IMG/VR virus record: IMGVR_UViG_3300024339_000095 | Coordinates: 1 to 22,102 of that record | DNA from: a virus | Reading direction: 5' to 3' (one strand) | Length of the DNA: 22,102 bases | Shown here: positions 1 through 22,102 of the stretch, one piece after another | Layout: each line of letters starts with the position of its first letter | Numbering within the stretch: the stretch's first letter is position 1 | Notes under the pieces: model-generated | What the model was told of the DNA's origin: nothing | Database searches by the model: none | What the model saw: only the letters and a program-made list of their open reading frames with translations | Translations under genes and position numbers: made by a program

Positions 1-36
1 GTGCGTTGTGTGTTCTATAAATATACAGGAGTATAT

Positions 37-222
37 ATGAAAAAAGAAAAAAGATGGTTACTGCAGGTGCAACCTCAAGGTGACGGCAACTGGTATGAGT
101 TTGATACCGGCTCTAAGAAGGCGATGGAAGCAAAGAAACGTGAGCTTCTATCAATGGCAAAGTGTGGCGACTGTGTAGGATTAACAGCCGAAGCATGTGT
201 AAGAGTAGAACCTTACATCTAA
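37..222 (+). CDS. small hypothetical phage protein (61 aa)
   Basis: I do not recognise this protein. The start at 37 is chosen because AGGAG (27-31) lies 5 nt before the ATG; an in-frame GTG at position 1 has no visible ribosome site. The product is short, basic and soluble, with a WYEFDTGSKKAMEAKK stretch in the middle and two cysteines near residues 43-46. Its centre weakly resembles the 56-aa protein at 1127-1297 (aromatic residues, then YEF/T/SK and a charged helix), so the two could be distant paralogues. A GAAA-loop hairpin follows the stop codon. Function unknown; the reading frame and ribosome site support it as a gene. Confidence 0.6.
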   Translation: MKKEKRWLLQVQPQGDGNWYEFDTGSKKAMEAKKRELLSMAKCGDCVGLTAEACVRVEPYI

Positions 223-229
223 CAACTTA

Positions 230-253
230 GGCAAAGGGCGAAAGCCCTGAGCC
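230..253 (+). other. GAAA-loop hairpin after the first small gene
   Basis: GGC (230-232) pairs with GCC (251-253) and GGGC (236-239) with GCCC (244-247). They are separated by an AAA/TGA internal loop and closed by a GAAA tetraloop. Only three T residues follow, so it is a weak terminator at best. It may instead be an RNA stability or processing element between the genes at 37-222 and 273-383. Confidence 0.45.
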
Positions 254-272
254 TTTCAACTAAGGAAACAAT

Positions 273-383
273 ATGTTTTTAATACACAAAAAGAAGTTCG
301 CTAAGTATCTACGACTTAAAGAACATTACAGGAATAACAGATGGTTATACAACATACATAACTTATCACCTTATCCCTACTAA
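273..383 (+). CDS. tiny hypothetical protein (36 aa)
   Basis: ATG at 273 is preceded by AAGGA (262-266) at 6 nt spacing. The frame runs 36 codons to TAA. The product is basic and aromatic (MFLIHKKKFAKYLRL at the start, then several Arg, Asn and Tyr residues) and matches no family I know. It sits between a hairpin and a strong terminator (403-426), which fits a last small gene of a short left-end transcript. At this length the call rests only on the ribosome site and position. Confidence 0.4.
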   Translation: MFLIHKKKFAKYLRLKEHYRNNRWLYNIHNLSPYPY

Positions 384-402
384 TATCTAGTACAACTAAG
401 AG

Positions 403-426
403 CCCTGCGAAAGCAGGGTTTCTTTT
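403..426 (+). terminator. intrinsic (rho-independent) terminator
   Basis: CCCTGC (403-408), GAAA loop (409-412) and GCAGGG (413-418) form a perfect 6-bp stem, followed by a T-rich tract (TTTCTTTT, 419-426). It ends the left-most small-gene transcript. A box repeated after the second terminator starts at 431. The 294 bases between 384 and 677 hold no gene: only this terminator, the box, the motif at 577-593 and the hairpins described separately. Confidence 0.85.
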
Positions 427-430
427 CGCC

Positions 431-475
431 TGTTATATTTACAACAAACTTTATTTTTATTGGCTCGGGGGGTTA
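431..475 (+). repeat. bipartite post-terminator box, copy 1
   Basis: A 20-base box (431-450) and the 13-base box GCTCGGGGGGTTA (463-475) lie 12 bases apart, directly after a terminator. Copy 2 at 1341-1384 matches 18 of 20 bases in the first box and 13 of 13 in the second, with an 11-base gap. The flanking DNA is not conserved, so this looks like a selected site (phage promoter, processing or antitermination site) rather than a simple duplication. Role unknown. Confidence 0.6.
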
Positions 476-576
476 TAAAACGGATATTAAATGGGTGTTG
501 TAGCCCTAACCCACTGTATCAAACCACCACCTCGCAAACCCTTATGTAGCAAGGGATACACGGCTTTTAATATTCT

Positions 577-593
577 ATGGTGTAATGATGGCA
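577..593 (+). promoter_or_regulatory. conserved leader motif, copy 1
   Basis: The 17 bases ATGGTGTAATGATGGCA match 14 of 17 with 2130-2146. The motif lies about 100 bases upstream of the start of the 132-aa gene, as its partner lies about 110 bases upstream of the 111-aa gene. The stretch just before each start is also alike (TATAA, then ATGGAG). It could be a promoter for a phage-specific or modified RNA polymerase, or a conserved element of an untranslated leader. Confidence 0.4.
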
Positions 594-622
594 TCACTTC
601 GCAATGATGCGTCGTGATAGGG

Positions 623-648
623 GCAGGTAGGCATACTTGCTTACCTGC
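623..648 (+). promoter_or_regulatory. long hairpin in the leader of the 132-aa gene
   Basis: GCAGGTAGGCA (623-633), a TACT loop (634-637) and TGCTTACCTGC (638-648) form an 11-bp stem with one G:T pair. It ends 17 nt before the GGAG of the next gene and has no T tract, so it is unlikely to be a terminator. It may protect the 5' end of the message or control translation. A smaller stem, GCATCA (591-596) with TGATGC, lies just upstream. Confidence 0.5.
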
Positions 649-677
649 GAATCTATAACTCAAATGGAGATAAAACC

Positions 678-1076
678 ATGGGTAAATTGTTCAAAGGTGG
701 TGTTAGACTTGCACCCAAGAAAGACCAAAAGTCGGGCGTGGAAATGGTTACTATTGTATCTGATAAGGTCAATGGTGAGTACGAAGCGAAAGAAGTTGCC
801 GAACTATTCAAGCATATGCTTGAAGTGGTACAGGAAACTGGTTATGGCGTCGACCGATATGCTATATATATCAAGGGCGTAAACGAGAAAATCTCTGCTA
901 CCAAGCCAACAATCCCACTTGCCACTATAAATAAGGCACTTGAGGACGGCGCTAAGTTGAAACTTGTTCAAGCGAACAAAGGGTATCCAAGCCCACGTAT
1001 CGACCTAGAGTTTGCAACCGATAAGGCTACCAAGGCGAAAGCCAAAGTAATCAACTCGATATTTACACGCAAGTAA
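678..1076 (+). CDS. hypothetical phage protein (132 aa)
   Basis: Start at 678 has GGAG (666-669) at 8 nt spacing. The product is lysine-rich, soluble and mixed alpha/beta in appearance. It begins MGKLFKGGVRLAPKKDQKSG, has a likely helix around residues 39-56 (EVAELFKHMLEVVQETG) and ends in a basic stretch of Lys, Ala and Thr. No catalytic motif, signal peptide or membrane segment is visible. A long untranslated leader with a strong hairpin and the conserved 577-593 motif suggests its own transcription unit and perhaps high expression. It may be a DNA- or RNA-binding early protein, but that is a guess from charge and position. I do not recognise the family. Confidence 0.8.
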   Translation: MGKLFKGGVRLAPKKDQKSGVEMVTIVSDKVNGEYEAKEVAELFKHMLEVVQETGYGVDRYAIYIKGVNEKISATKPTIPLATINKALEDGAKLKLVQANKGYPSPRIDLEFATDKATKAKAKVINSIFTRK

Positions 1077-1083
1077 ACCCAAC

Positions 1084-1106
1084 GGAGTCCTGGGAAACCA
1101 GGCTCC
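1084..1106 (+). other. GAAA-loop hairpin between genes
   Basis: GGAG (1084-1087) pairs with CTCC (1103-1106) and CCTGG (1089-1093) with CCAGG (1098-1102). There is a bulged T at 1088 and a GAAA loop at 1094-1097. No T tract follows. It lies seven bases after the stop of the 132-aa gene and just before the next ribosome site, like the hairpin at 230-253. Confidence 0.5.
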
Positions 1107-1126
1107 ACCCCTTACAGGAGTTCAAT

Positions 1127-1297
1127 ATGAATGATAAATGTAAAATAACCATACTCAACAAATCACCATGTGGTAGATATTGGATGAGATACGAGTTCAC
1201 AAGCAAACAGGAACTAAGAAAGTTCGAATCTGCAAAGCTAAAGCGGATGCCAAGTGAAATAACCGAGATACCTGAGAAACGCAGGGCTCATTACTAA
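1127..1297 (+). CDS. small hypothetical protein (56 aa)
   Basis: ATG at 1127 follows CAGGAG (1115-1120) at 6 nt. The frame runs 56 codons to TAA. The product is basic, has two cysteines in its first 15 residues, a GRYWMRYEFTSKQEL segment and a Lys/Arg-rich C-terminal half. Its pattern weakly echoes the 61-aa protein at 37-222. It is followed within 10 nt by a perfect terminator, so it closes the transcript that begins with the 132-aa gene. Function unknown. Confidence 0.6.
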   Translation: MNDKCKITILNKSPCGRYWMRYEFTSKQELRKFESAKLKRMPSEITEIPEKRRAHY

Positions 1298-1306
1298 ATA
1301 AACCAA

Positions 1307-1337
1307 AAACCTAGGCCAATAACCTAGGTTTTTTATT
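1307..1337 (+). terminator. intrinsic terminator
   Basis: AAACCTAGG (1307-1315) pairs perfectly with CCTAGGTTT (1323-1331) around a 7-base loop. The T run TTTTTTATT (1329-1337) overlaps the end of the stem. The symmetric A/T flanks mean it could also work on the opposite strand. It isolates the left small genes from the AT-rich region that follows. Confidence 0.85.
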
Positions 1338-1340
1338 GTC

Positions 1341-1384
1341 TGTTTTATTTCCAACAAACTAATGTGCCATAGCTCGGGGGGTTA
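1341..1384 (+). repeat. bipartite post-terminator box, copy 2
   Basis: Second copy of the box at 431-475. The first part (1341-1360) differs at two of 20 bases and the GCTCGGGGGGTTA part (1372-1384) is identical. As with copy 1, it begins a few bases after the T tract of an intrinsic terminator. The repeat array starts straight after it. Confidence 0.6.
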
Positions 1385-2101
1385 CACCTTACACACTTTT
1401 AAATGTATCTATATAAGAAGATGTTAATAGTTTACACTTCGCACCTGTACTTTACACTGTAAAGTTAAACGCTTTACAGGTAGATTATTATGTAAGTCAT
1501 TGATATTACTACACTTATAGATGTAAAGTTTTAAAATAATCTACATAAGACAATCTTAATATAGGTGTGTTTAACCACATAGATTATTGGAGAACTTTAC
1601 ATGTAAAGTTAAGCCAAAACCATTGATACAAAAGGATTTGAGGTATAATATAAGTATAATAGTTAATATATATAATCTATATAATCTACAAATATTTATG
1701 TCTTTCTCTGAAAAAATGTTTTTTACATAAATATTACTTTACATGTAAACTATTGGATACCAACATATTTTTAGCACCACATTAAATATATTTTTGTAGA
1801 TTTTATAGATTATTTTTCACCAACCCTTACTCCAATGCACCCTCTAGCGATACATTTTTTTAATACACCCCATAACTTTACATAGATTATTTACCCTAAC
1901 CTTACACCTTACATAGATTATTTATGGATTACCCTATATAACTTTACACCCACGCGCGTACTATAATAATATAAATACTCAAACTTTACACCCTTTACAC
2001 TACCTATTTAGTGTAAACTTTACACATAACTTTACATTTACCTATCGGACACATCCCTATATAGGTGACTTTACACTAACCCTATCTAAAATTATAGATA
2101 G
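1381..2101. repeat. AT-rich region with two interspersed short repeat families (candidate origin/regulator cluster)
   Basis: This is the bulk of a 943-base gene-free stretch (1298-2240). Motif A, ACTTTACAC or ACTTTACAT, occurs exactly on the plus strand at 1449, 1594, 1736, 1875, 1941, 1983, 2017, 2029 and 2068, and on the minus strand at 1521-1529 and 1601-1609, with further near matches. Motif B, TAGATTATT, occurs at 1481, 1580, 1806, 1883 and 1914, and inverted at 1535-1543; one-mismatch inverted copies cover 1671-1688. A and B are fused at 1875-1891, with looser fusions at 1472-1489 and 1908-1922. Inverted A pairs give palindromes at 1449-1465, 1593-1610 and 2011-2025. The A+T content, repeat density and lack of coding suggest an iteron-type origin or a multi-site operator, read from sequence only. 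Confidence 0.6.
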
Positions 2102-2129
2102 AATGGAAATCCACACCCCGAAAAAATTT

Positions 2130-2146
2130 GTGGTCTAATGGTGGCA
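2130..2146 (+). promoter_or_regulatory. conserved leader motif, copy 2
   Basis: GTGGTCTAATGGTGGCA matches the motif at 577-593 at 14 of 17 positions and lies 110 bases before the next start codon. Part of it, TTTGTGGTCT (2127-2136), recurs at 2202-2211 within the same leader. It is a candidate phage promoter or leader element; no sigma70 consensus is evident nearby. Confidence 0.4.
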
Positions 2147-2240
2147 CGAATTTGGTCTTGCCCTATTGGGTGTTCCTTTTCGTGGGGCTCTTAGTGGTTA
2201 CTTTGTGGTCTCTTATTTATAAACTATATGGAGGACTCTT

Positions 2241-2576
2241 ATGTCTGGAAATTATAAAGGTAAGTTTGATGTTGTTGTTAATACGGTAAATAAAGTGGTA
2301 CTTAAAGAGAATGCTTCAGGACTCTGGTCTAATGAAGGTGAACTTGTTGATGGTAAATTAAAGTATGATGTTAAGGCTTGTTATCAATGGATGCTTGATG
2401 TGGCTAAATCACAGAAGGCTGAGTTTAAACCATTCACACCGAATGCTTCAGCCTCTGACTTAGAGCCAACGGTTAAGAGTGGTCGTGGTGATAAACCATA
2501 CATGGCTATGTTGAGTGCATCAGATAACTTTGGTGCTTCAAACAAACGTACTGTTACTGTATTTGCACCACAGTAA
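2241..2576 (+). CDS. hypothetical phage protein (111 aa)
   Basis: Start at 2241 has a strong GGAGG (2230-2234) at 6 nt. The protein begins MSGNYKGKFDVVVNTVNKV, with a beta-rich look. It then has a short helix (YQWMLDVAKSQ, about residues 48-58) and ends in a strand-like RTVTVFAPQ. No motif, membrane segment or signal peptide is seen. It stands alone between the AT-rich repeat region and a terminator at 2594-2622, with the 2130-2146 leader motif upstream, so it is probably a separately expressed, perhaps abundant, early protein. A single-strand-binding or host-takeover role is possible but unsupported by any motif. Confidence 0.8.
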   Translation: MSGNYKGKFDVVVNTVNKVVLKENASGLWSNEGELVDGKLKYDVKACYQWMLDVAKSQKAEFKPFTPNASASDLEPTVKSGRGDKPYMAMLSASDNFGASNKRTVTVFAPQ

Positions 2577-2591
2577 TATCACAGTAATATC
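2570..2591. repeat. 11-bp tandem duplication at a stop codon
   Basis: ACAGTAATATC is present twice head to tail (2570-2580 and 2581-2591). The first copy contains the TAA stop of the 111-aa gene. This looks like a recent slippage duplication; the second TAA gives a spare stop. Confidence 0.7.
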
Positions 2592-2593
2592 AT

Positions 2594-2622
2594 GGGTGGT
2601 CTACACGACACCCTTTTTATTT
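2594..2622 (+). terminator. probable intrinsic terminator
   Basis: GGGT (2594-2597) pairs with ACCC (2610-2613) and GTC (2599-2601) with GAC (2607-2609). There is a bulged G and a TACAC loop, followed by TTTTTATTT (2614-2622). It is weaker than the terminators at 403 and 1307 but in the right place, 18 nt after the 111-aa gene. Confidence 0.65.
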
Positions 2623-2649
2623 GTTTTATAACTATTAAAGGAGTTAAAT

Positions 2650-2895
2650 ATGAAGGTTAAAGATATTATTACTGGATTAGAAGAAGAGTTTAATCTTGAT
2701 GATGAGTTAATTATTGTATTTGTATCCCATAAAGAGATGCAAGAACTAACAGATGGTTGGTGGTTAAAGGTGGTTAATGCCTATGATAATGAGCCTTATC
2801 CGATAGATGTTAAGACTAGTAACAAACATACACTGCATAGGTCAGTGATTAACCACGTTATAACAACTGCGAATACTATTAGGGGGGATAACTGA
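2650..2895 (+). CDS. hypothetical protein (81 aa)
   Basis: ATG at 2650 follows AAAGGAG (2637-2643) at 6 nt. The acidic N-terminal half (MKVKDIITGLEEEFNLDDEL, then IIVFVSHKEMQ) looks like a small alpha/beta domain. The C-terminal part is neutral. No catalytic motif is recognised. It is the first gene of a tight run of small genes; its TGA shares one base with the next ATG. Function unknown. Confidence 0.7.
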   Translation: MKVKDIITGLEEEFNLDDELIIVFVSHKEMQELTDGWWLKVVNAYDNEPYPIDVKTSNKHTLHRSVINHVITTANTIRGDN

Positions 2896-3167
2896 TGACT
2901 TTAAGAGAGTATTACTTTGAGACTATTGGTCAGTACAGCGACAACATCGACCATAACTGGATACACTATCTTGACAGGGGGTATGATATAACGACAGGTG
3001 AACTGTTGTCGTTGTATGAACTTATGTACAGCCTTAAGCATCCAGAGGACTGCGGTGCAGTAGAGTCTTCAGCGACTCGTATGATGGTTCTTAGGGTAGG
3101 TAAAGCACTCGGTATATATAGACTATATATGCGGTGGGTAGACTACCTTGAAAGGAGGGCTAACTGA
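2895..3167 (+). CDS. hypothetical protein (90 aa)
   Basis: Start overlaps the previous stop by one base (TGATG), with GGGGGG upstream as a poor ribosome site, so it probably depends on translational coupling. The product is helical and aromatic, with several Tyr and Trp (YYFETIGQYSDNIDHNWIHY near the N-terminus, YRLYMRWVDYLERR at the end). There is no signal peptide or membrane segment. It overlaps the next start by one base, too. Not recognised. Confidence 0.7.
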   Translation: MTLREYYFETIGQYSDNIDHNWIHYLDRGYDITTGELLSLYELMYSLKHPEDCGAVESSATRMMVLRVGKALGIYRLYMRWVDYLERRAN

Positions 3168-3590: not shown

Positions 3591-3776
3591 ATGAAGCAGT
3601 TAAAGTTATTCTGCCTCAGATGGGGCAAAGGTGGACAGATGGTGTGTGATGTAGAGGGTAATCCCACATACTTCGGTGATAAGACGGTGGCTAAACAGCA
3701 CCGAGATGAGAGCATGGTGGTGTCATATGGCATTGACCATAAGAAATATAACTACGTTAAAGGAGATGTAAGATGA
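3591..3776 (+). CDS. hypothetical protein (61 aa)
   Basis: I place the start at 3591 because GGAGG (3582-3586) is 4 nt upstream; an earlier in-frame start at 3573 would overlap the previous gene without a ribosome site. The product is short and basic, with two cysteines in its first 25 residues and a lysine/tyrosine-rich end. It overlaps the ATPase gene by ATGA (3773-3776), which suggests coupled translation with it. Not recognised. Confidence 0.65.
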   Translation: MKQLKLFCLRWGKGGQMVCDVEGNPTYFGDKTVAKQHRDESMVVSYGIDHKKYNYVKGDVR

Positions 3777-4765
3777 GAGCAACATTGATGAAAGAAACAG
3801 TGAAGGCGTTATTCCCACAGCAGAGGACGCTGTGTATAGAGGGTAGTCCAGGTGGTGGCAAGACGACCATAGTGCATGAGGTTGCTGATGACCTTGGGGT
3901 TGAGTGCAGAGAGTTGCATATGCCGACTATGTTGGTGGAGGACTTCGGGATACTATACCCCGACAAAGAGGACAGTGACAACCTAACATACCGCTTACCA
4001 GAGTGGTTCCCGCAAGAGGGTAAAGCACCAGATAAAGGGATACTGTTGTTCGATGACAGGAACCAAGCAGGTGCTGACTTGCAGAAGGTACTGGCTAACA
4101 TCTGTCAAGCGAGGACTCTACATGGACACAAGTTACCAGATGGTTGGCAGGTTATCTCAACGGGTAACAGGCAGAAGGATAGAGCAGGGGCTAACCGTGT
4201 CCTATCACACCTTAGGAATAGGGAGACAGTCGTTGACCTTGATACACACCTTGATGACTGGAGTGCTTGGGCAATAGAGCATGGGGTTAAGACTGAGGTG
4301 GTGTCGTTCATACGGTTTAGACCTAACTTACTGCATGACTTCGACCCACAGAGAGAGCAGAACGCTACGCCGAGGAGTTGGGTAGATGGTGTGAGTGATG
4401 TGCTTGGGACTGTGCCACCAGAGGCAGAGTATGAGTGCTTTAAAGGGGCAGTTGGTGAGGGTGCAGCAGCAGAGTTCGTAGGGTTCATAAGGATATATCG
4501 GAAACTACCTAACCCAGATGCAATCTTGCTTAACCCAACTACTGCTAGTGTGCCATCAGACCCTGCAACGCTGTATGCATTGAGTGGTGCGATAGCAGAG
4601 AGGGCAACAGAGGACAACTTCAACAGGGTGTGTACTTATGCAGAGCGTATGCCACCAGAGTTCAGTGTGTTAAGCATCAGTTATGCAGCGAGGAAGAAGC
4701 CAGAGTTGGCAAGTACCAAGGCGTTTACAGACTGGGCAGTTAAACACCAAGACATCTTATTTTAG
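3773..4765 (+). CDS. MoxR-type AAA+ ATPase
   Basis: A 330-aa P-loop ATPase. Walker A is GSPGGGKT (residues 24-31), Walker B is ILLFDD (90-95) with Asp rather than Glu in the second acidic position, sensor 1 is STGN (129-132), and HLRNR (146-150) is a likely arginine-finger region. The order and length fit the MoxR branch of AAA+ proteins, which act as chaperone-like motors and usually work with VWA-domain partners. Here the candidate partner is the VWA protein at 6611-7747, with a helical companion next door (4775-5620). Start at 3773 has GGAG (3762-3765) at 7 nt and overlaps the previous stop by ATGA. Family assignment is firm; target and role are unknown. Confidence 0.9.
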   Translation: MRATLMKETVKALFPQQRTLCIEGSPGGGKTTIVHEVADDLGVECRELHMPTMLVEDFGILYPDKEDSDNLTYRLPEWFPQEGKAPDKGILLFDDRNQAGADLQKVLANICQARTLHGHKLPDGWQVISTGNRQKDRAGANRVLSHLRNRETVVDLDTHLDDWSAWAIEHGVKTEVVSFIRFRPNLLHDFDPQREQNATPRSWVDGVSDVLGTVPPEAEYECFKGAVGEGAAAEFVGFIRIYRKLPNPDAILLNPTTASVPSDPATLYALSGAIAERATEDNFNRVCTYAERMPPEFSVLSISYAARKKPELASTKAFTDWAVKHQDILF

Positions 4766-6449: not shown

Positions 6450-6636
6450 GTTTCCTACTGCATTGATGGTGTGGTATGACAACATGCATGAGTTACCAAC
6501 AGGTATGCTCATTGAAACGCTACTTGTCCATATGCCGAAGTCCGTACTAGGGGTTTCACTTATGAATATAGATAGCACTATTGAAACAATCCGTGAAGAG
6601 GAGAAACAAGATGGAGATAGAGAAACGACTGAGTAA
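6415..6636 (+). CDS. hypothetical protein (73 aa)
   Basis: The start at 6415 has only a weak AAGG (6402-6405) at about 9 nt, so translation may rely on ribosomes finishing the membrane-protein gene, which it overlaps by 35 nt. The product is acidic, with LPTGMLIETLLVHMPKSVLG in the middle and a charged C-terminus (REEEKQDGDRETTE). It overlaps the next, VWA-protein gene by 26 nt. Not recognised. Confidence 0.55.
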   Translation: MTDTELRKLKAEFPTALMVWYDNMHELPTGMLIETLLVHMPKSVLGVSLMNIDSTIETIREEEKQDGDRETTE

Positions 6637-7747
6637 AGCAAAGACATCATTAGTGCTGGAACACCCATTCATTGGGAACATAGCACTGAACATGCCCTTT
6701 GAAGTAACAGAAGAAGTACCAACTGCCGCAACCGACGGTAAGAGGGCGAAGTTTAACCCCAACTTCTGTGAGAAGTTAAGTGATGAGGAACTCAAGTTCC
6801 TTGTAGCCCATGAGTGTATGCACCCCATGTTGGAACACCCATTCAGACGAGGTGAGAGGGATATCCGCAACTGGAACAAGGCAGGTGATTACGTCATCAA
6901 CCAACTGCTTGTTGATGAGGGCATTGGTAAGATGCCAGAGGGTGGGCTGTATGACAACGGCATATGGCAACAAGGCAATGGAACTACTGATGGTATCTAC
7001 AAGGTACTACCGATTATAGATGACGGTGACGGTGAAGGTGGCGTAGGCTCTGTTGGTGGGCAAGGCGACCCACTTGATGAGTGCCTTGATGCTGATGGCT
7101 CACCTGCTGAGAAGGAACAGAATGCAGCCGAGTGGAAAGTTAAGGTAGCCCAAGCAGCACAGGCTGCGAAGATGATGGGTAAGATGAGTGCAGGAGTGGA
7201 ACGCTTTGTTGGTGAGGTACTGCAACCTAAGGTGGACTGGCGTGAAGTATTGCAACGGTTTGTAGAGAAGTGTAAAGATGACACTCGCTCTTGGGCTAGA
7301 CCTAACAGACGCTTCCTCTCACAAGGTATGTACCTACCAAGTACCAGTGGTGAGGCAATGGGCGAACTTGTAGTAGCAGTGGATTGTTCTGGCTCTATCG
7401 GGCAAGAAGAGATAGACCAGTTCGCTGCAGAGGTGACTACTATTAAAGAGGACAGTAACCCTAGTGCTATCCATGTTGTATACTTTGACAGTGAAGTATC
7501 ACACTACGATAAGTTTACAAGAGATGATGAAGTACACATCACACCGCATGGTGGTGGAGGTACAGCATTTAGCCCTGTGTTTAAGTACCTTGAGAAACAC
7601 AACATAGAACCAGTAGCCTGTGTATTCCTCACTGATTTATACTGTGGTGATTTCGGTGCTGAACCAGCATACCCTACACTGTGGGTAACTACTGACAGTA
7701 ACAGCACAGATGCACCGTTTGGTGAAGTGGTGGTGATGAATGATTAA
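6611..7747 (+). CDS. metallopeptidase-like/VWA protein (DUF2201-type)
   Basis: A 378-aa two-domain protein. Residues 1-130 carry HECMH (67-71), an HExxH zinc-peptidase motif in a helix (LKFLVAHECMHPMLEH), as in the DUF2201 N-terminal metallopeptidase-like domain. A Gly/Asp-rich linker (about 137-165) follows. Residues 250-378 are a VWA-like domain with MIDAS DCSGS (258-262), Thr318 after GGGG, and TD at 341-342. VWA proteins of this type pair with MoxR ATPases, here at 3773-4765. GAGGAG (6598-6603) at 7 nt supports the start at 6611. It may be an adaptor or protease-like effector remodelled by the ATPase; the substrate is unknown. Confidence 0.88.
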   Translation: MEIEKRLSKAKTSLVLEHPFIGNIALNMPFEVTEEVPTAATDGKRAKFNPNFCEKLSDEELKFLVAHECMHPMLEHPFRRGERDIRNWNKAGDYVINQLLVDEGIGKMPEGGLYDNGIWQQGNGTTDGIYKVLPIIDDGDGEGGVGSVGGQGDPLDECLDADGSPAEKEQNAAEWKVKVAQAAQAAKMMGKMSAGVERFVGEVLQPKVDWREVLQRFVEKCKDDTRSWARPNRRFLSQGMYLPSTSGEAMGELVVAVDCSGSIGQEEIDQFAAEVTTIKEDSNPSAIHVVYFDSEVSHYDKFTRDDEVHITPHGGGGTAFSPVFKYLEKHNIEPVACVFLTDLYCGDFGAEPAYPTLWVTTDSNSTDAPFGEVVVMND

Positions 7748-10278: not shown

Positions 10279-10647
10279 ATGAATGGAACGTCAAAAAAAG
10301 AAAAGATATTAGTATATCTAAAAGCAAATCCTAGTAAGTCTACGATACAAGTAGCGAAAGCACTAGGTGTTAGGAAGGAGTATGTGTACAACATCAAGTC
10401 ATCAGCAGGATTAACCAAAACTAAGGCACAACCAATCAATGGTGCAATGGCAGAGGCAATTACTTCAGCACTGGTTGATACAAAGCCTGCAGCGAAGAGT
10501 AAGAAGATAACCAAGCAGGAAGTTGTTGTCAAGAAGTCTATGAGTGTGAGACTACAAATAGAGATGGAACATGGCACGCTCATCATGAGCATGGCTGAAG
10601 CCAGAGAGTTGTATGGTGTACTTAACCCGCTGATGAGCGATGACTGA
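10279..10647 (+). CDS. helix-turn-helix DNA-binding protein (122 aa)
   Basis: GGAGAG lies about 6-8 nt before ATG 10279. Residues 7-40 (KEKILVYLKANPSKSTIQVA, then KALGVRKEYVYNIKS) read as a winged or simple helix-turn-helix of the type that binds DNA, with the recognition helix near VRKEYVYNIK. A Lys/Ala/Pro linker follows. The C-terminal part (SVRLQIEMEHGTLIMSMAEA, RELYGVL) looks like a small separate domain found in other phage proteins. It could regulate phage transcription, for example at the repeat region 1381-2101, but that link is untested. It overlaps the next gene by 8 nt. Confidence 0.7.
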   Translation: MNGTSKKEKILVYLKANPSKSTIQVAKALGVRKEYVYNIKSSAGLTKTKAQPINGAMAEAITSALVDTKPAAKSKKITKQEVVVKKSMSVRLQIEMEHGTLIMSMAEARELYGVLNPLMSDD

Positions 10648-16793: not shown

Positions 16794-17768
16794 ATGTCAA
16801 ATATTGTTCCCAGTAATATCCAAGTTCCTGCACACCTTGCAGGCAAAGTAGGCGCACCATCTGTATTAGCGCAATCGTTAACAGGTGGACTAGCAACGGG
16901 TGGCGATGGCTTCCCACGTATCTCTATCAAAGGTAGTCGTTTCCGCATCGTTGATGGCGGTGATGAAACAGTCCTTGACTCAACCAAGATTGATGTAATC
17001 ATTGTGGGTGCTAACCCTAGGTTATCTAAGACATGGTATGAGAAAGCATGGACTCCAGATGCAGAGCCTTCAGCACCAGACTGTTTCTCGTTGACTGGTG
17101 TCGGTCCACATACTGACAGCACCAATCCACAGAACGATTTGTGTGCCTCATGTCCTCAGAATGCTTGGGGTTCTAAGTTAACACCACAAGGTCAGCAGAT
17201 TAAAGCCTGTGCAGACCAGAAACGTTTAGCAGTAGTTGCTGCTGATGATGCCGATGGTTCAGTGTACTTACTACAAGTAACTCCGGGTGCATTGAAAGGG
17301 TTGAACGCCTACCAGAAAGAACTATCTACAAGAGGCATACCACCAGAGATTGTTAAGACCACGTTGTCTTTCGATACTGATGCGTCATACCCTAAGTTAG
17401 CGTTTGGATTTGGTGGCTTCATTGATGAAGCAGCGCAAGCCGCAGTAGATAAGTTGTTTGGTACTGAGCAAGTGTTAAAGATAACAGGTGAGAAAGAAAT
17501 TGATAAGCCTGTTGTACCTAAAGTTGCAGCCAAGCCAGCACCAGTGGTTGAAGCAGTGGTTGAAGCAGTGGTTGTAGCAGTGGTTGAAGAAGCACCAGTG
17601 ACTAAGGGATTTGGTAAAGCAGCACCTGTTGAAGCACCTAAGCCTAAAGCAAAACCTAAAGCGAGAAAAGTTGTTGAAGAGCCAGCGGAAGCACCTGTTG
17701 TTGACAAGGCTACAACTAATCTTGCTGATGAGATTGCTGCTCTTGTAGGGGAAGTTGCTGATGACTAA
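16794..17768 (+). CDS. candidate ssDNA-binding protein with zinc site and acidic tail (324 aa)
   Basis: I do not know a named family, but the layout fits a phage single-strand-binding protein. Residues 40-160 hold a beta-rich core (PRISIKGSRFRIVDGG) with four cysteines, Cys97, Cys117, Cys120 and Cys139, suited to a zinc site. Residues 190-235 complete the fold. Residues 240-305 are a Pro/Ala/Val/Lys/Glu linker, and the end is acidic (LADEIAALVGEVADD), as in SSB proteins that recruit partners by the C-terminus. AGGAGAG lies 5-8 nt before ATG 16794. Its place between the nuclease/helicase genes and the primase-helicase supports the role. A 12-bp repeat encodes VVEA in the linker. Confidence 0.68.
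   Translation: MSNIVPSNIQVPAHLAGKVGAPSVLAQSLTGGLATGGDGFPRISIKGSRFRIVDGGDETVLDSTKIDVIIVGANPRLSKTWYEKAWTPDAEPSAPDCFSLTGVGPHTDSTNPQNDLCASCPQNAWGSKLTPQGQQIKACADQKRLAVVAADDADGSVYLLQVTPGALKGLNAYQKELSTRGIPPEIVKTTLSFDTDASYPKLAFGFGGFIDEAAQAAVDKLFGTEQVLKITGEKEIDKPVVPKVAAKPAPVVEAVVEAVVVAVVEEAPVTKGFGKAAPVEAPKPKAKPKARKVVEEPAEAPVVDKATTNLADEIAALVGEVADD
17542..17589. repeat. four tandem 12-bp repeats in the linker
   Basis: CAGTGGTTGAAG is present at 17542-17553, 17554-17565 and 17578-17589, with a one-base variant (GTAG end) at 17566-17577. Each unit encodes four residues (VVEA-like), so copy changes keep the frame. This is a natural site for slipped-strand length variation. Confidence 0.85.
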
Positions 17769-18048
17769 ACCGAAGCCACTTGATTTTTCTAAAGTGGAGT
17801 CGCTGCGTAAGCATATGATGCTTACTATCACTGACATGGCGTCAGTGGTGGGAGTGTCACGTATGACCTATCATAGTTGGAAGAAGGGTACGCCCATTCG
17901 GAAAGATAATGATATCAAACTACGTGATACACTACGCAAACTTCTGTCAGTTATGCAAGACAAAGGGTGGCCATCACCCGATGTCATTGTGCTTGAACCC
18001 AAGGACAGAAAAAAGCAACTCGTTGAGTATTTAGAGGAGTATCATTAA
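17761..18048 (+). CDS. helix-turn-helix regulator (95 aa)
   Basis: ATG 17761 overlaps the SSB-like gene by ATGACTAA (8 nt), with GGGGA (17748-17752) at 8 nt. Residues 20-44 (MLTITDMASVVGVSRMTYHS, WKKGT) read as an Xre/Cro-like helix-turn-helix with a W-KKG end, as in many phage regulators. Flanking basic residues (RKHMM, RKLLS) fit DNA binding. The remaining C-terminal part is basic and helical. It closes this transcript before the terminator at 18058. It may be a repressor or a replication-timing factor; the target is unknown. Confidence 0.75.
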   Translation: MTKPKPLDFSKVESLRKHMMLTITDMASVVGVSRMTYHSWKKGTPIRKDNDIKLRDTLRKLLSVMQDKGWPSPDVIVLEPKDRKKQLVEYLEEYH

Positions 18049-18094: not shown

Positions 18095-20941
18095 ATGGAC
18101 ACGTTGGAATTTCTACAGCGCGTTCTACCTACCAAGGGGTTCTACGTCACTACTGTCATTAACAAAGACGGTAATAGACAGGGATTCTTTGATAGCGTAG
18201 ACGAACTGTCAAAGGTCTGTGTTAGGTCAGACCAAACTAAAAACAATACCTACTACGCAATATCAGCCTTCAAGACTAAAGGCAACAGGAAGCAGGAGAA
18301 TGTCAGAGCAGTTAAAGTTGTTGCACTAGATGTAGACTGTGGTGAAACAAAGCCATATCCAGACTGGAAGGCTGGACTAACAGCACTAGGCAAGTTCATC
18401 AACGAGTTGGAACTACCGAAGCCTATGATAATTTTCTCTGGTAACGGACTGCATGTATACTGGGTTCTTACAGAAGAACTAACACCTATGCAGTGGAAGC
18501 CATTGGCTGGTGCTATGAAGTTAGCCGCAGCAGAGAAAGAGTTTCATATTGATGCAGGACTAACAACCAACAGTGCACTGGTACTACGACCAGTTGGAAC
18601 TCACAACCCTAAGAATGGGAACGAGGTGAAGTTGTTGGTGGATGCTGAGCCTGTTACGCCTAAAGCTCTTCTAAGTAAACTTACAAACTACATGCAATAC
18701 AACCTGGCCCATAGTAACCGACAACCACGTGAGAGTTCGTTGCTGAATAACTTAGCAGTGACTCAAGAGTACCCACCTGCTGTTGGCTCTGTTGTATCTA
18801 GTAAGTGTCAGCAGATTGGTTGGGCAATTAAGAACCAGAAGGATGTACCAGAGCCGTTGTGGTATAGCCTCATCGGAGTTGCGGCATTCTGTGTAGACCC
18901 AGAAGATACTGCAATCAAATGGAGTGAGGGGCATGACTCCTACTCTGAGTCAGTGACAAGAGATAAAGTTATCCAGTGGAAAGACAATGCTACTGGACCA
19001 ACAACTTGTGACAAACTTAAATCTGATAGACCGAATGGTTGTAGAGGGTGTAAGTATGCAGGCAAAGTTGGCTCACCAGCACGACTAGGTATCCAGTACC
19101 AAGAGGTAGCCATTACTACAGAAGTACCAGATAAGGTAGCGAACCTAGTACCTATCCCGAAACCGTTTAAGCGTACACAGCATGGTATCAAGATGACTAT
19201 TGATGATACTGATATTGACATATGTAAGTTTGACATATACCCTGTAGGTTATGGACGTGATGACCACCTTGATTATGAAGTTGTTCGTTTCCACTGGAAG
19301 CGACCACACATCGGGTGGACTGAACTTAAATTACGACAAGCATACTTAACAGATGGAAGCAGAGAGTTTCCTACTGCGATAGCAGACCAAGGTATTGTGC
19401 TATTCAACAAACGACAGACGGAGTATTTTCAACTTATGTTACGAACATACATGGAAGAACTAAGGCAGATACGTACCATGACCAACCTCTATTCAACCAT
19501 GGGTTGGAAAGAAAACAATACGCATTTTGTTATAGGCGACACAGTTATAAGCAAAGCAGATGACGGCAGTGTCTCAGAAGAACAAGTTACATTATCAACA
19601 GCATCAAGCAACTTAAGTACAGGTATGTATGGCAGGAAAGGAGACGCTGCAGCGTGGACTACGATGACTAACATGCTAGAGAAAGCACATATGCCGAGTC
19701 ATATGTTTGCTTTGGGCGTTGGTTTCTCAGCACCACTGTTTAACTTCACTGGCTTGAAGGGACTAACGATATCGTTATATGGCCCAACAGGTGGTGGTAA
19801 AACACTAGCCCAATACTGGATACAATCCATCTATGGTGACCCAGACAAGTTGCACTTCGCTGCGAAGTTTACACAGAACACACTGTTCAACCGTATGGGT
19901 TTGTATGCACATTTACCGATGACCATTGATGAGGTCACCATGATGCAAGACAAAGAGGTTGGCGACTTCTGTTACTGGGTGAGCCAAGGTAAAGACAAGG
20001 CGAGACTAAGTCGCTCAGCAGTAGAGCGTGATACAAAAACATGGGCAACCCCGGTCGTTGTATCTACAAACAAGTCACTGCAATCTAAGTTGATAGCCTC
20101 TGGGTTAGACACCGATGCACAGATGGCACGTTTACTAGAGGTTACTGTGCCGCCACACGAACTATTTACTAAGAGCAGCTCAGCAGGTAGAAACCTCTAT
20201 AACTTCGTAACAAATAACTACGGTCATGCAGGCCACACATTCATAAACAAGTTGATGGAAATAGGTTCTGAAGATATAAGAGCCATGGTTGCCGAAGCAA
20301 CTGACACATTCCACAAACGATACGGCGCTGAGTTCAGTGGGCAAGAACGATTCTGGGAACAAGCTATCATACTATCAGACCTAGCATCTAAACTTGCTAA
20401 GGACTGGGGATTGATTGACTATGACTATACTAAGGGAACTGAGTGGGTACTTGAACAGATAGGTGCTATCCGAATAGTGGCAGAAGAAAGTAAGATGGAC
20501 TCGTTTGATATCATATCAGCATACCTTAGTGACTTCGCTGATGTTGCTGTCACTGTTATGCACACAGCAGGACAGAAGCCAGTGGTTGACTTCCAACGAT
20601 TACCACGTGGAGAGATACGTGTTAGGTTCGATGTCTTCCGTAAGACAATGACTGACGTGTTCAGCAGTGGTACGCTAATGTTAGACCGTACTCACTTCCG
20701 TAAGTGGTTATCCATGAGTGGCCATGATTACAAATCGTTCTGTGGTGAACTTACCTGTGAACACATTGATGCTACACCTAAGTCTAAGAAGTGTTTCTTA
20801 GGTAAGAACACACCTATCAAACTAGGTCAAGCATATGTTGTGGGTATCAACCTCAACCATCCGCGACTACAAGGCATACTAGATGATGCTGATGTAGCCG
20901 CAGAGGATTTGTTGCAGGGTCAATTACAGATGGTTAATTAG
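18095..20941 (+). CDS. primase-helicase (AEP-like N-terminus, DUF927-like ATPase)
   Basis: A 948-aa fused replication protein. The N-terminal third looks like an archaeo-eukaryotic-type primase: hydrophobic-DVD (Asp79, Asp81), SGNGLHVYW (His120) and RPVGTHN (Arg165, His170). A cysteine cluster (Cys305, Cys316, Cys319) may bind metal. The C-terminal half has Walker A GPTGGGKT (563-570) and Walker B TIDE (610-613) with VVVSTNKS downstream as sensor 1, like DUF927/SF3-type helicases. It should open DNA at the origin and lay primers. GAGGAGG (18084-18090) at 4 nt supports the start. It ends tail-to-tail over the minus-strand gene. Confidence 0.9.
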   Translation: MDTLEFLQRVLPTKGFYVTTVINKDGNRQGFFDSVDELSKVCVRSDQTKNNTYYAISAFKTKGNRKQENVRAVKVVALDVDCGETKPYPDWKAGLTALGKFINELELPKPMIIFSGNGLHVYWVLTEELTPMQWKPLAGAMKLAAAEKEFHIDAGLTTNSALVLRPVGTHNPKNGNEVKLLVDAEPVTPKALLSKLTNYMQYNLAHSNRQPRESSLLNNLAVTQEYPPAVGSVVSSKCQQIGWAIKNQKDVPEPLWYSLIGVAAFCVDPEDTAIKWSEGHDSYSESVTRDKVIQWKDNATGPTTCDKLKSDRPNGCRGCKYAGKVGSPARLGIQYQEVAITTEVPDKVANLVPIPKPFKRTQHGIKMTIDDTDIDICKFDIYPVGYGRDDHLDYEVVRFHWKRPHIGWTELKLRQAYLTDGSREFPTAIADQGIVLFNKRQTEYFQLMLRTYMEELRQIRTMTNLYSTMGWKENNTHFVIGDTVISKADDGSVSEEQVTLSTASSNLSTGMYGRKGDAAAWTTMTNMLEKAHMPSHMFALGVGFSAPLFNFTGLKGLTISLYGPTGGGKTLAQYWIQSIYGDPDKLHFAAKFTQNTLFNRMGLYAHLPMTIDEVTMMQDKEVGDFCYWVSQGKDKARLSRSAVERDTKTWATPVVVSTNKSLQSKLIASGLDTDAQMARLLEVTVPPHELFTKSSSAGRNLYNFVTNNYGHAGHTFINKLMEIGSEDIRAMVAEATDTFHKRYGAEFSGQERFWEQAIILSDLASKLAKDWGLIDYDYTKGTEWVLEQIGAIRIVAEESKMDSFDIISAYLSDFADVAVTVMHTAGQKPVVDFQRLPRGEIRVRFDVFRKTMTDVFSSGTLMLDRTHFRKWLSMSGHDYKSFCGELTCEHIDATPKSKKCFLGKNTPIKLGQAYVVGINLNHPRLQGILDDADVAAEDLLQGQLQMVN

Positions 20942-22102
20942 TCAAACCCATACATCCTACGGAGCTGCTCTAACGTAGGATTCATAGTCTTCGCAGGTTG
21001 TAGTCTTTCAGACGGTGGTTTTTCCCATTCGCGTAGTGACCTATTAGCAGACTTTATAAAGTTACTAATGTAGAAAGGAGAGTCATTACCTGCGACTGCA
21101 TTCCACTCATCCACTGATGTCTCAATAGAACGTGCCAATCCAGTATCTTTATTTATAGTTGCCTTAACCCAAGCATTGCGGAAGTCTGCACGTACTGACT
21201 TCGCGTAGTCACCTGTCTGTTTCGCCATCCTAACAATATCATTCTGCCTTGATGCAACCGATGGGTAGAACCCTAACATCCTCATAAGGACAGTCTTGTT
21301 GTCCATCTCTCGCGACAACACTTGCCCCCTAGAGTTAGTTATCTGACCTGTATCCATGTATGAGTAGGAGTCAGATAACGCTCGTAGCCCAGTCAATGGT
21401 GCATCTCTAAGCACATCAATAAAGTTGCTCTTATCAGACTTAATACCCACAGCTTCTGCACCATACTCAAGTAAGTTCCAACCTGTTGTTACTATGCCTT
21501 TACCTGCTGCGGCTACTGGCCCGAGAGCATTAATCGTTTCATGTTTGAACGACGCCCCTTCTTTAAGCGACCCCGTCAATGGCAACAAATCTCCCATACC
21601 AATTCGTGTTGAAATTGTACCGCCTGTTATGTTGTCCAACACACCTCTCATAGCGTATGGCGCTAAGCCGGGGGATAACGCATCAAAGAAATTATTGAGC
21701 TCAGTTTCAACGGTCTTCTTCTTAATACCAAAATGTTGCATCAGAGTATCTACTAAGTCCATGAGGTCATCAGCAAAAGGTATACCTTTAATACCTGCAA
21801 CAAACACAAGCAGTGATAGGTAATAGACTCTACCAGCTGGTGGCATACGTGTCAATAACTGCACTGATGTGATAGGGAACTGCTTATACATAAATGGAAA
21901 TTGTAATATAGAACCACGTGCTACCTTAGGTCTATTAAACATACCGTACTCACCCTGCGATTGCTCGACAGTAATTCTTGCCTCTCGCTTAGCAATATGT
22001 ACAGCTTCTTTCTCAGACTCACCAGATGCAATGGCTCTAGCGTACTCCATCTCATATGAAGCGATGGCTGAAACTCTACGGTTGAGTTGCTCAGTGTAGG
22101 TG
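20938..22102 (-). CDS. C-terminal part of a large virion-associated polyvalent protein (partial)
   Basis: The reading frame on the minus strand stays open to the window edge, so the N-terminal part is missing; 387 residues are visible. The ATG at 22050 has no ribosome site and is internal. The segment GEYGMFNRPKVARGSILQFP (then FMYKQFP) resembles the C-terminal module of phage large polyvalent proteins (LPD38-like, from memory): G-x-Y, NRP, and a FKxFP-like end. A hydrophobic stretch (VYYLSLLVFVAGI) follows, then a GlyThrSer-rich region and basic helices. Such proteins are packaged in virions and are thought to enter the host with DNA. Orientation opposite to all other genes marks the structural module. 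TAA overlaps the primase stop. Confidence 0.7.
   Translation of the reverse strand, partial: TYTEQLNRRVSAIASYEMEYARAIASGESEKEAVHIAKREARITVEQSQGEYGMFNRPKVARGSILQFPFMYKQFPITSVQLLTRMPPAGRVYYLSLLVFVAGIKGIPFADDLMDLVDTLMQHFGIKKKTVETELNNFFDALSPGLAPYAMRGVLDNITGGTISTRIGMGDLLPLTGSLKEGASFKHETINALGPVAAAGKGIVTTGWNLLEYGAEAVGIKSDKSNFIDVLRDAPLTGLRALSDSYSYMDTGQITNSRGQVLSREMDNKTVLMRMLGFYPSVASRQNDIVRMAKQTGDYAKSVRADFRNAWVKATINKDTGLARSIETSVDEWNAVAGNDSPFYISNFIKSANRSLREWEKPPSERLQPAKTMNPTLEQLRRMYGFD
20955..20980. other. hairpin at the convergent gene junction
   Basis: TCCTACG (20955-20961) pairs with CGTAGGA (20974-20980), with an inner GAG/CTC pairing. It lies 14 nt after the primase stop and inside the end of the minus-strand gene. 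No T tract follows on either strand, so it may be only a coding coincidence or a factor-dependent stop. Confidence 0.3.

Follow-up and report, generated by a model that had tools for sequence, protein, structure and literature searches.

A predicted replication origin built from two repeat families in a group of uncultivated phages encoding a DUF927 primase-helicase

Iteron-based origins and Rep helicases that load themselves onto DNA are already known. In the SaPIs, the origin sits directly downstream of rep, and in SaPIbov1 its short iterons flank an AT-rich stretch. The satellite phage P4 uses its alpha primase-helicase to bind an origin whose octamer iterons run in both directions, and needs two separate regions, ori and crr. 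The origins of SV40 and the papillomaviruses, recognised by T antigen and E1, respectively, combine short, oppositely directed initiator sites with AT-rich DNA, onto which a double hexamer is loaded. Finally, lambda ori and the origins of the iteron plasmids place their iterons beside AT-rich DNA; that of lambda is embedded in the O gene, and the helicase is borrowed from the host.

Here we analysed a stretch of 22,102 bases from an uncultivated virus record, hereafter the window, which is a fragment of a genome. Our results suggest that an array of repeats at 1382-2101 is probably the origin of replication of this phage, used with its own primase-helicase. This prediction, which comes from sequence comparison, rests on the density of the motifs, their mirror layout around the least stable DNA, the conservation of the array and the homology of the candidate initiator. 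As in the iteron-type origins, short repeats are clustered at one place next to an easily melted AT-rich element. The same genome encodes a DUF927 Rep-like helicase, which is the candidate binder of the repeats.

The likeness to the SaPIs lies in the short iterons and in the helicase family, to which the candidate initiator belongs by both structure and sequence and which includes the SCCmec Cch protein. However, the array is present in a phage genome and not in an island, is located approximately 16 kb upstream of the initiator gene instead of directly downstream of rep, and contains two unrelated motifs. The phage initiator, in addition, carries a fused AEP primase, and the neighbouring gene codes for a dedicated HTH protein. 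With P4 the phage shares the fusion of primase and helicase and the bidirectional octamer iterons, but the helicase family and the iteron sequence differ, and all the exact copies are in a single cluster (the window being a genome fragment) rather than in two regions. The SV40 and E1 origins also have oppositely directed sets of sites with AT-rich DNA, although the phage initiator is unrelated to theirs in sequence and its site sets are 84-123 bp apart. As in lambda, the iterons lie beside AT-rich DNA, but the phage studied here encodes its own helicase. To our knowledge, a mirror origin with two motifs, a distant AEP-DUF927 initiator gene and a dedicated HTH partner has not been described.

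Layout and conservation of the repeat array

The array occupies about 700 bases of gene-free, AT-rich DNA (27% GC). Motif 1, ACTTTACA, is present 12 times in the window, and motif 2, TAGATTAT, 8 times, compared to the 1.4 and 1.0 copies expected from whole-window shuffles (means of 1.44 and 1.02), none of which matched the observed counts. Moreover, every exact copy of both 8-mers in the 22,102 bases falls within 1449-2075. When 1381-2101 was itself shuffled 2000 times, the means were 0.18 for ACTTTACA (maximum 3) and 0.15 for TAGATTAT (maximum 2). The dense array that had originally been predicted is therefore real, with counts above those of shuffled sequence of equal composition, the comparison proposed at the time. 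The copy number given then for ACTTTACA[C/T], nine on the plus and two on the minus strand, was exact; dropping the last base adds one further minus copy at 1458, which makes the total of 12. Similarly, TAGATTATT occurs five times on the plus strand and once on the minus strand, and the shorter TAGATTAT adds two minus copies at 1672 and 1681, for a total of 8. The statement that no ORF covers the array also holds, since 1298-2127 is the longest stretch of the window free of ORFs of at least 50 aa.

The spacing of the repeats had been described as irregular. This is half right: spacing varies overall, but motif 2 is arranged in 9-bp tandems with a conserved mirror layout, which the original prediction missed. 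Thus, two head-to-head tandem sets of TAGATTAT surround an AT-rich core of 108 bp (1689-1796, 21% GC). The left arm (1672-1688, minus strand) consists of two copies of TAGATTAT, reading ATAATCTATATAATCTA on the plus strand, and the right arm (1797-1813, plus strand), which has the opposite direction, of TAGATTTT and TAGATTAT. Both have the 9-bp spacing, by far the commonest between neighbouring motif 2 copies in all the arrays compared (54 cases), and both belong to a 28-nt inverted repeat (I1) that is 89% complementary. The core, which we propose as the DNA-unwinding element, carries an imperfect motif 1 palindrome, TACTTTACATGTAAACTA, in its middle (1735-1752), and a third conserved box, TTTTTAGCACCACATTA (1768-1784, plus strand), found in a similar form (about TAGYRCCACATTAYC) in many relatives. 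To the left of the core, motif 1 forms the palindrome ACTTTACA-C-TGTAAAGT (1449-1465) and a perfect 16-bp palindrome, ACTTTACATGTAAAGT (1594-1609). To its right, a copy of motif 1 is fused to one of motif 2 (ACTTTACATAGATTATT, 1875-1891, plus strand), and five copies of motif 1, at 1941, 1983, 2017, 2029 and 2068, make up the right-hand cluster (1941-2075), all on the plus strand.

Nearest-neighbour energies placed the least stable 100 bp of the window at 1644-1744 and the least stable 200 bp at 1617-1817, corresponding to the core, which lies entirely inside the latter, and its left edge. Of 12 relative contigs (19-58 kb), 11 had their overall least stable site at the array, which ranked third in the remaining one. 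In the majority of the long contigs, no more than about 2 kb separates the array from the GC-skew minimum, and the leftward structural and the rightward replication genes diverge nearby; this position supports an origin weakly, because skew also follows gene direction and the two causes are inseparable.

With the ATPase, the DUF927 protein and two proteins encoded nearby as queries, we retrieved 164 loci. The relatives carry the array at the same place, approximately 2 kb before the ATPase gene, with one array per genome; the motifs were thus kept where the original prediction had asked whether relatives might lose them. Using a strict definition (9-bp-spaced AnnATCTA repeats in two sets that face each other head to head, 84-123 bp apart), the layout was present in 46 of 83 relative loci and in none of the reversed sequences. 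The figure of 46 is a lower bound because some loci do not reach the array, and not 46 independent cases because many are close relatives of one another. Among the other 37, some stop short of the array and others have degenerate arms. The same head-to-head tandem layout was seen in 20 of 30 real arrays, compared to none of the shuffled arrays. Note that the sequence of motif 2 drifts across lineages (ATAATCTA, ACAATCTA and ACTATCTA), and that the left and right arms shift jointly, ATAATCTA being paired with TAGATTAT and ACTATCTA with TAGATAGT. Such joint drift is what a shared reader would enforce. The position of the array, its layout and the co-variation of the arms are kept across lineages whose initiators are only 51-68% identical.

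The phage group is without close cultured relatives. Neither the first 6 kb of the window nor the HTH protein had a match in 50,697 phage records, and a scan of 84,980 species genomes with two peptide patterns, by which distant ones can be missed, returned no relatives of the initiator. In Pseudomonas phage Rollin (43 kb examined), whose initiator homologue is 26% identical, we found neither an AnnATCTA tandem nor a dense 8-mer cluster, and the small ORF that precedes the homologue gene bears no resemblance to the 95-aa HTH protein.

The candidate initiator and its HTH neighbour

The rightward genes of the window include those for a MoxR-type ATPase, a DUF2201 protein, a family-A DNA polymerase, a helicase and the DUF927 primase-helicase (18095-20941, plus strand), our candidate initiator. 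Directly 5' of the latter is the gene for the 95-aa lambda-repressor-like HTH protein (17761-18048, plus strand), an order that is kept throughout the phage group. The DUF927 protein (948 aa) comprises an AEP primase, a DUF927 helicase similar to SaPIbov1 Rep and Cch, and a C-terminal domain of helices and strands. Its AlphaFold model, built from 35 relatives (mean pLDDT 75, pTM 0.46), had as best Foldseek matches the SCCmec Cch (E 7e-14) and SaPIbov1 Rep (E 4e-9), followed by an AEP PrimPol domain, and in sequence profile searches the helicase region also matched SaPIbov1 Rep (6.7e-12) and Cch (3.3e-11). This homology supports the primase-helicase as a partner of the array, as originally suggested. 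By contrast, the DNA-binding role considered at the time for its N-terminus is not supported: the N-terminus matches AEP primases, and the homology points to the C-terminal domain.

DUF927 has been described as a bona fide helicase family (PMC5862659). The SaPI Rep helicases recognise their iterons via the C-terminal domain and apparently bind as two hexamers; T antigen and E1 recognise DNA with an N-terminal domain (PMC7581432). By analogy with the SaPI proteins, the origin-binding part of the DUF927 protein should be its C-terminal domain. In the model, the helices and strands of the C-terminal part (about residues 803-945) could form a winged helix, a reading based on secondary structure and not on a fold match. 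Nine of the 22 positions that separate the motif 2 classes are in this domain (p 0.003). As several control contrasts based on other groupings showed the same degree of enrichment, this covariation was set aside as non-diagnostic.

For motif 1, the candidate reader is the 95-aa HTH protein, whose model (pLDDT 91) gave weak but consistent matches to HipB and to the 434 and P22 c2 repressors. In 27 of 30 arrays, AC[CT]T[TG]ACA was present 3-16 times; it was absent from those of G013, G021 and G041, which carry [CA]GGTTACA 6-9 times in its place. Among the genomes with a known HTH sequence, the recognition helix VTRMTY[YF]RW[IV]QG was found in these three only. Thus, motif 1 has shifted from ACYTKACA to GGTTACA in this clade together with the HTH helix, while motif 2 remained unchanged, which suggests that motif 1 is read by the HTH protein and motif 2 by a different factor. 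This covariation is evidence and not proof, because it represents one event in one clade of three genomes. The small-terminase-like protein encoded near the array shows no break in the same clade (about 70% identity, as elsewhere).

The covariation supports the proposal that the HTH protein at 17761-18048 is a partner of the array. The second HTH protein put forward with it, at 10279-10647, does not qualify as a general partner, being present in only 27 loci compared to 86 for the former. A further change of motif 1 and HTH protein was considered in G044 (GTATACAC, three copies) and rejected as ambiguous, as this genome also retains five copies of AC[CT]T[TG]ACA.

An origin and the competing explanations

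If the array is the origin, the DUF927 primase-helicase would bind motif 2 via its C-terminal domain, load as two head-to-head rings, one per arm, and melt the AT-rich core, in the manner put forward for the related Rep of the SaPIs. The HTH protein may bind motif 1, including the palindromes in and around the core, and could either help or limit initiation. The fused AEP primase would then prime and the phage family-A DNA polymerase extend. We tentatively propose, with rather less confidence than the origin itself and slightly short of even, an origin with two codes: the AEP-DUF927 protein would load itself on the mirror arms as a double ring, while the HTH partner would gate melting by reading the separately evolving motif 1. 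If true, this would represent a T-antigen-like origin design in a widespread group of uncultivated phages. The origins of such phages are rarely located, and here comparison alone points to the sites that would be bound, the core that would melt and two proteins that may do the binding. With these defined, double-helicase loading becomes testable in a compact phage system related to the SaPI and SCCmec helicases; moreover, the natural joint change of motif 1 and the HTH helix offers a ready specificity test, and the mirror layout can be used as a marker for origins in this phage group.

The original prediction had named both origins and multi-copy operators as possible readings of the array. 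The first is supported by the layout, the melting profile and the initiator homology; the second explains less. As a multi-operator transcription switch, the array would be bound on both motifs by the HTH protein or another regulator to control the promoters of the rightward replication genes, and would not be an origin. We consider this unlikely, even though the HTH protein has a lambda-repressor-like fold, motif 1 makes operator-like palindromes of 16 bp and, in some variants, contains the -35-box-like TTGACA or TTTACA, and the array is upstream of the rightward gene block. The sigma-70-like sites in 1-3000 (12) are as many as expected from shuffles (11.9); the genome has a single array, with no exact copy of the motif words directly before the HTH gene itself in the window; and operators would not be expected to show tandem arms mirrored about the least stable DNA of the genome. 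Note that an origin containing a promoter would not conflict with our reading.

It is improbable that the array marks where DNA packaging begins (pac or cos), with the small terminase subunit as its reader. The small-terminase-like protein has no particular change in the clade with the changed motif 1, unlike the HTH protein beside the initiator, and we know of no packaging site in which mirror iterons flank an unstable core of about 100 bp. What would fit packaging is that the terminase genes are just left of the array, transcribed away from it, and that the ends of one contig share a repeat of 123 bp, which a circular or circularly permuted genome would produce. Still less credible is a partition site of a plasmid-like phage state: repeated sites and a small HTH protein could form a ParB-like centromere system, but profile searches with most of the larger window genes revealed no partition ATPase, the only such ATPase being of the MoxR type (phrog_1297), and melting fits the mirror arms around unstable DNA better. 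Finally, AT-rich DNA raises the counts of short words, so that chance or drifting repeats in functionless intergenic DNA could be imagined; this we regard as nearly excluded, because the counts far exceed those of the same-composition shuffles, and the conserved position, layout and arm co-variation contradict it. Two further candidates were discarded. A CRISPR array, which had already been dismissed in the original prediction, is ruled out by the repeat length (8-9 nt), the use of both directions and the varied spacing. For a DnaA-dependent oriC, we found no TTWTNCACA box in the array and two in the window.

Borders and neighbours of the array

The left border of the array is marked by the element CGGGGGGTTA (1375-1384, plus strand), with a second copy at 466-475; in many relatives, too, the array is bordered by a copy. 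In its general form, CGGGGGGTT[A/G], this element is often part of a longer sequence (about CCATNNNTCGGGGGGTTATRGC), is oriented with the replication genes, and is present in 1-3 copies per genome, after terminators and, in many relatives, just left of the array. It could be a promoter, a packaging element or a border of the origin. In the right part of the array, the clade of the window keeps a CG-alternating run, ACGCGCGCGCG followed by ATTACTACTA (L085:3490-3515, L088:3428-3445 and L095:8530-8545), the version at 1951-1966 of the window being CACGCGCGTACTATAA. The right border (2100-2235; L085:3590-3650; L088:3520-3600) is conserved and possibly structured, with CCGACCACTTTCTCTGTGTACTGGTCGAAACTTGACAAATCGGCGACGGCG in relatives, and could be a leader RNA; the stretch 2100-2235 of the window had no Rfam match, and the single match to known RNA families was below the gathering score and outside the array.

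Left of the array, the first leftward genes include the terminase large subunit and a conserved small-terminase-like protein (L169:11914-13383 in G002, and adjoining genes). The reading frame at the right end of the window (20938-22101, minus strand) is the C-terminal part of a giant leftward protein of 2600-2900 aa, located at 30758-39379 in G004 (early-gene orientation); its only match was phrog_11358, in the C-terminal part, with no Pfam domain. Finally, the MoxR-type ATPase and the DUF2201 protein (metallopeptidase/VWA) form a pair at 3773-4765 and 6581-7747, and relatives of the ATPase with approximately 30% identity occur in many phages with genomes of 70-80 kb, several of which we take to be N4-like.
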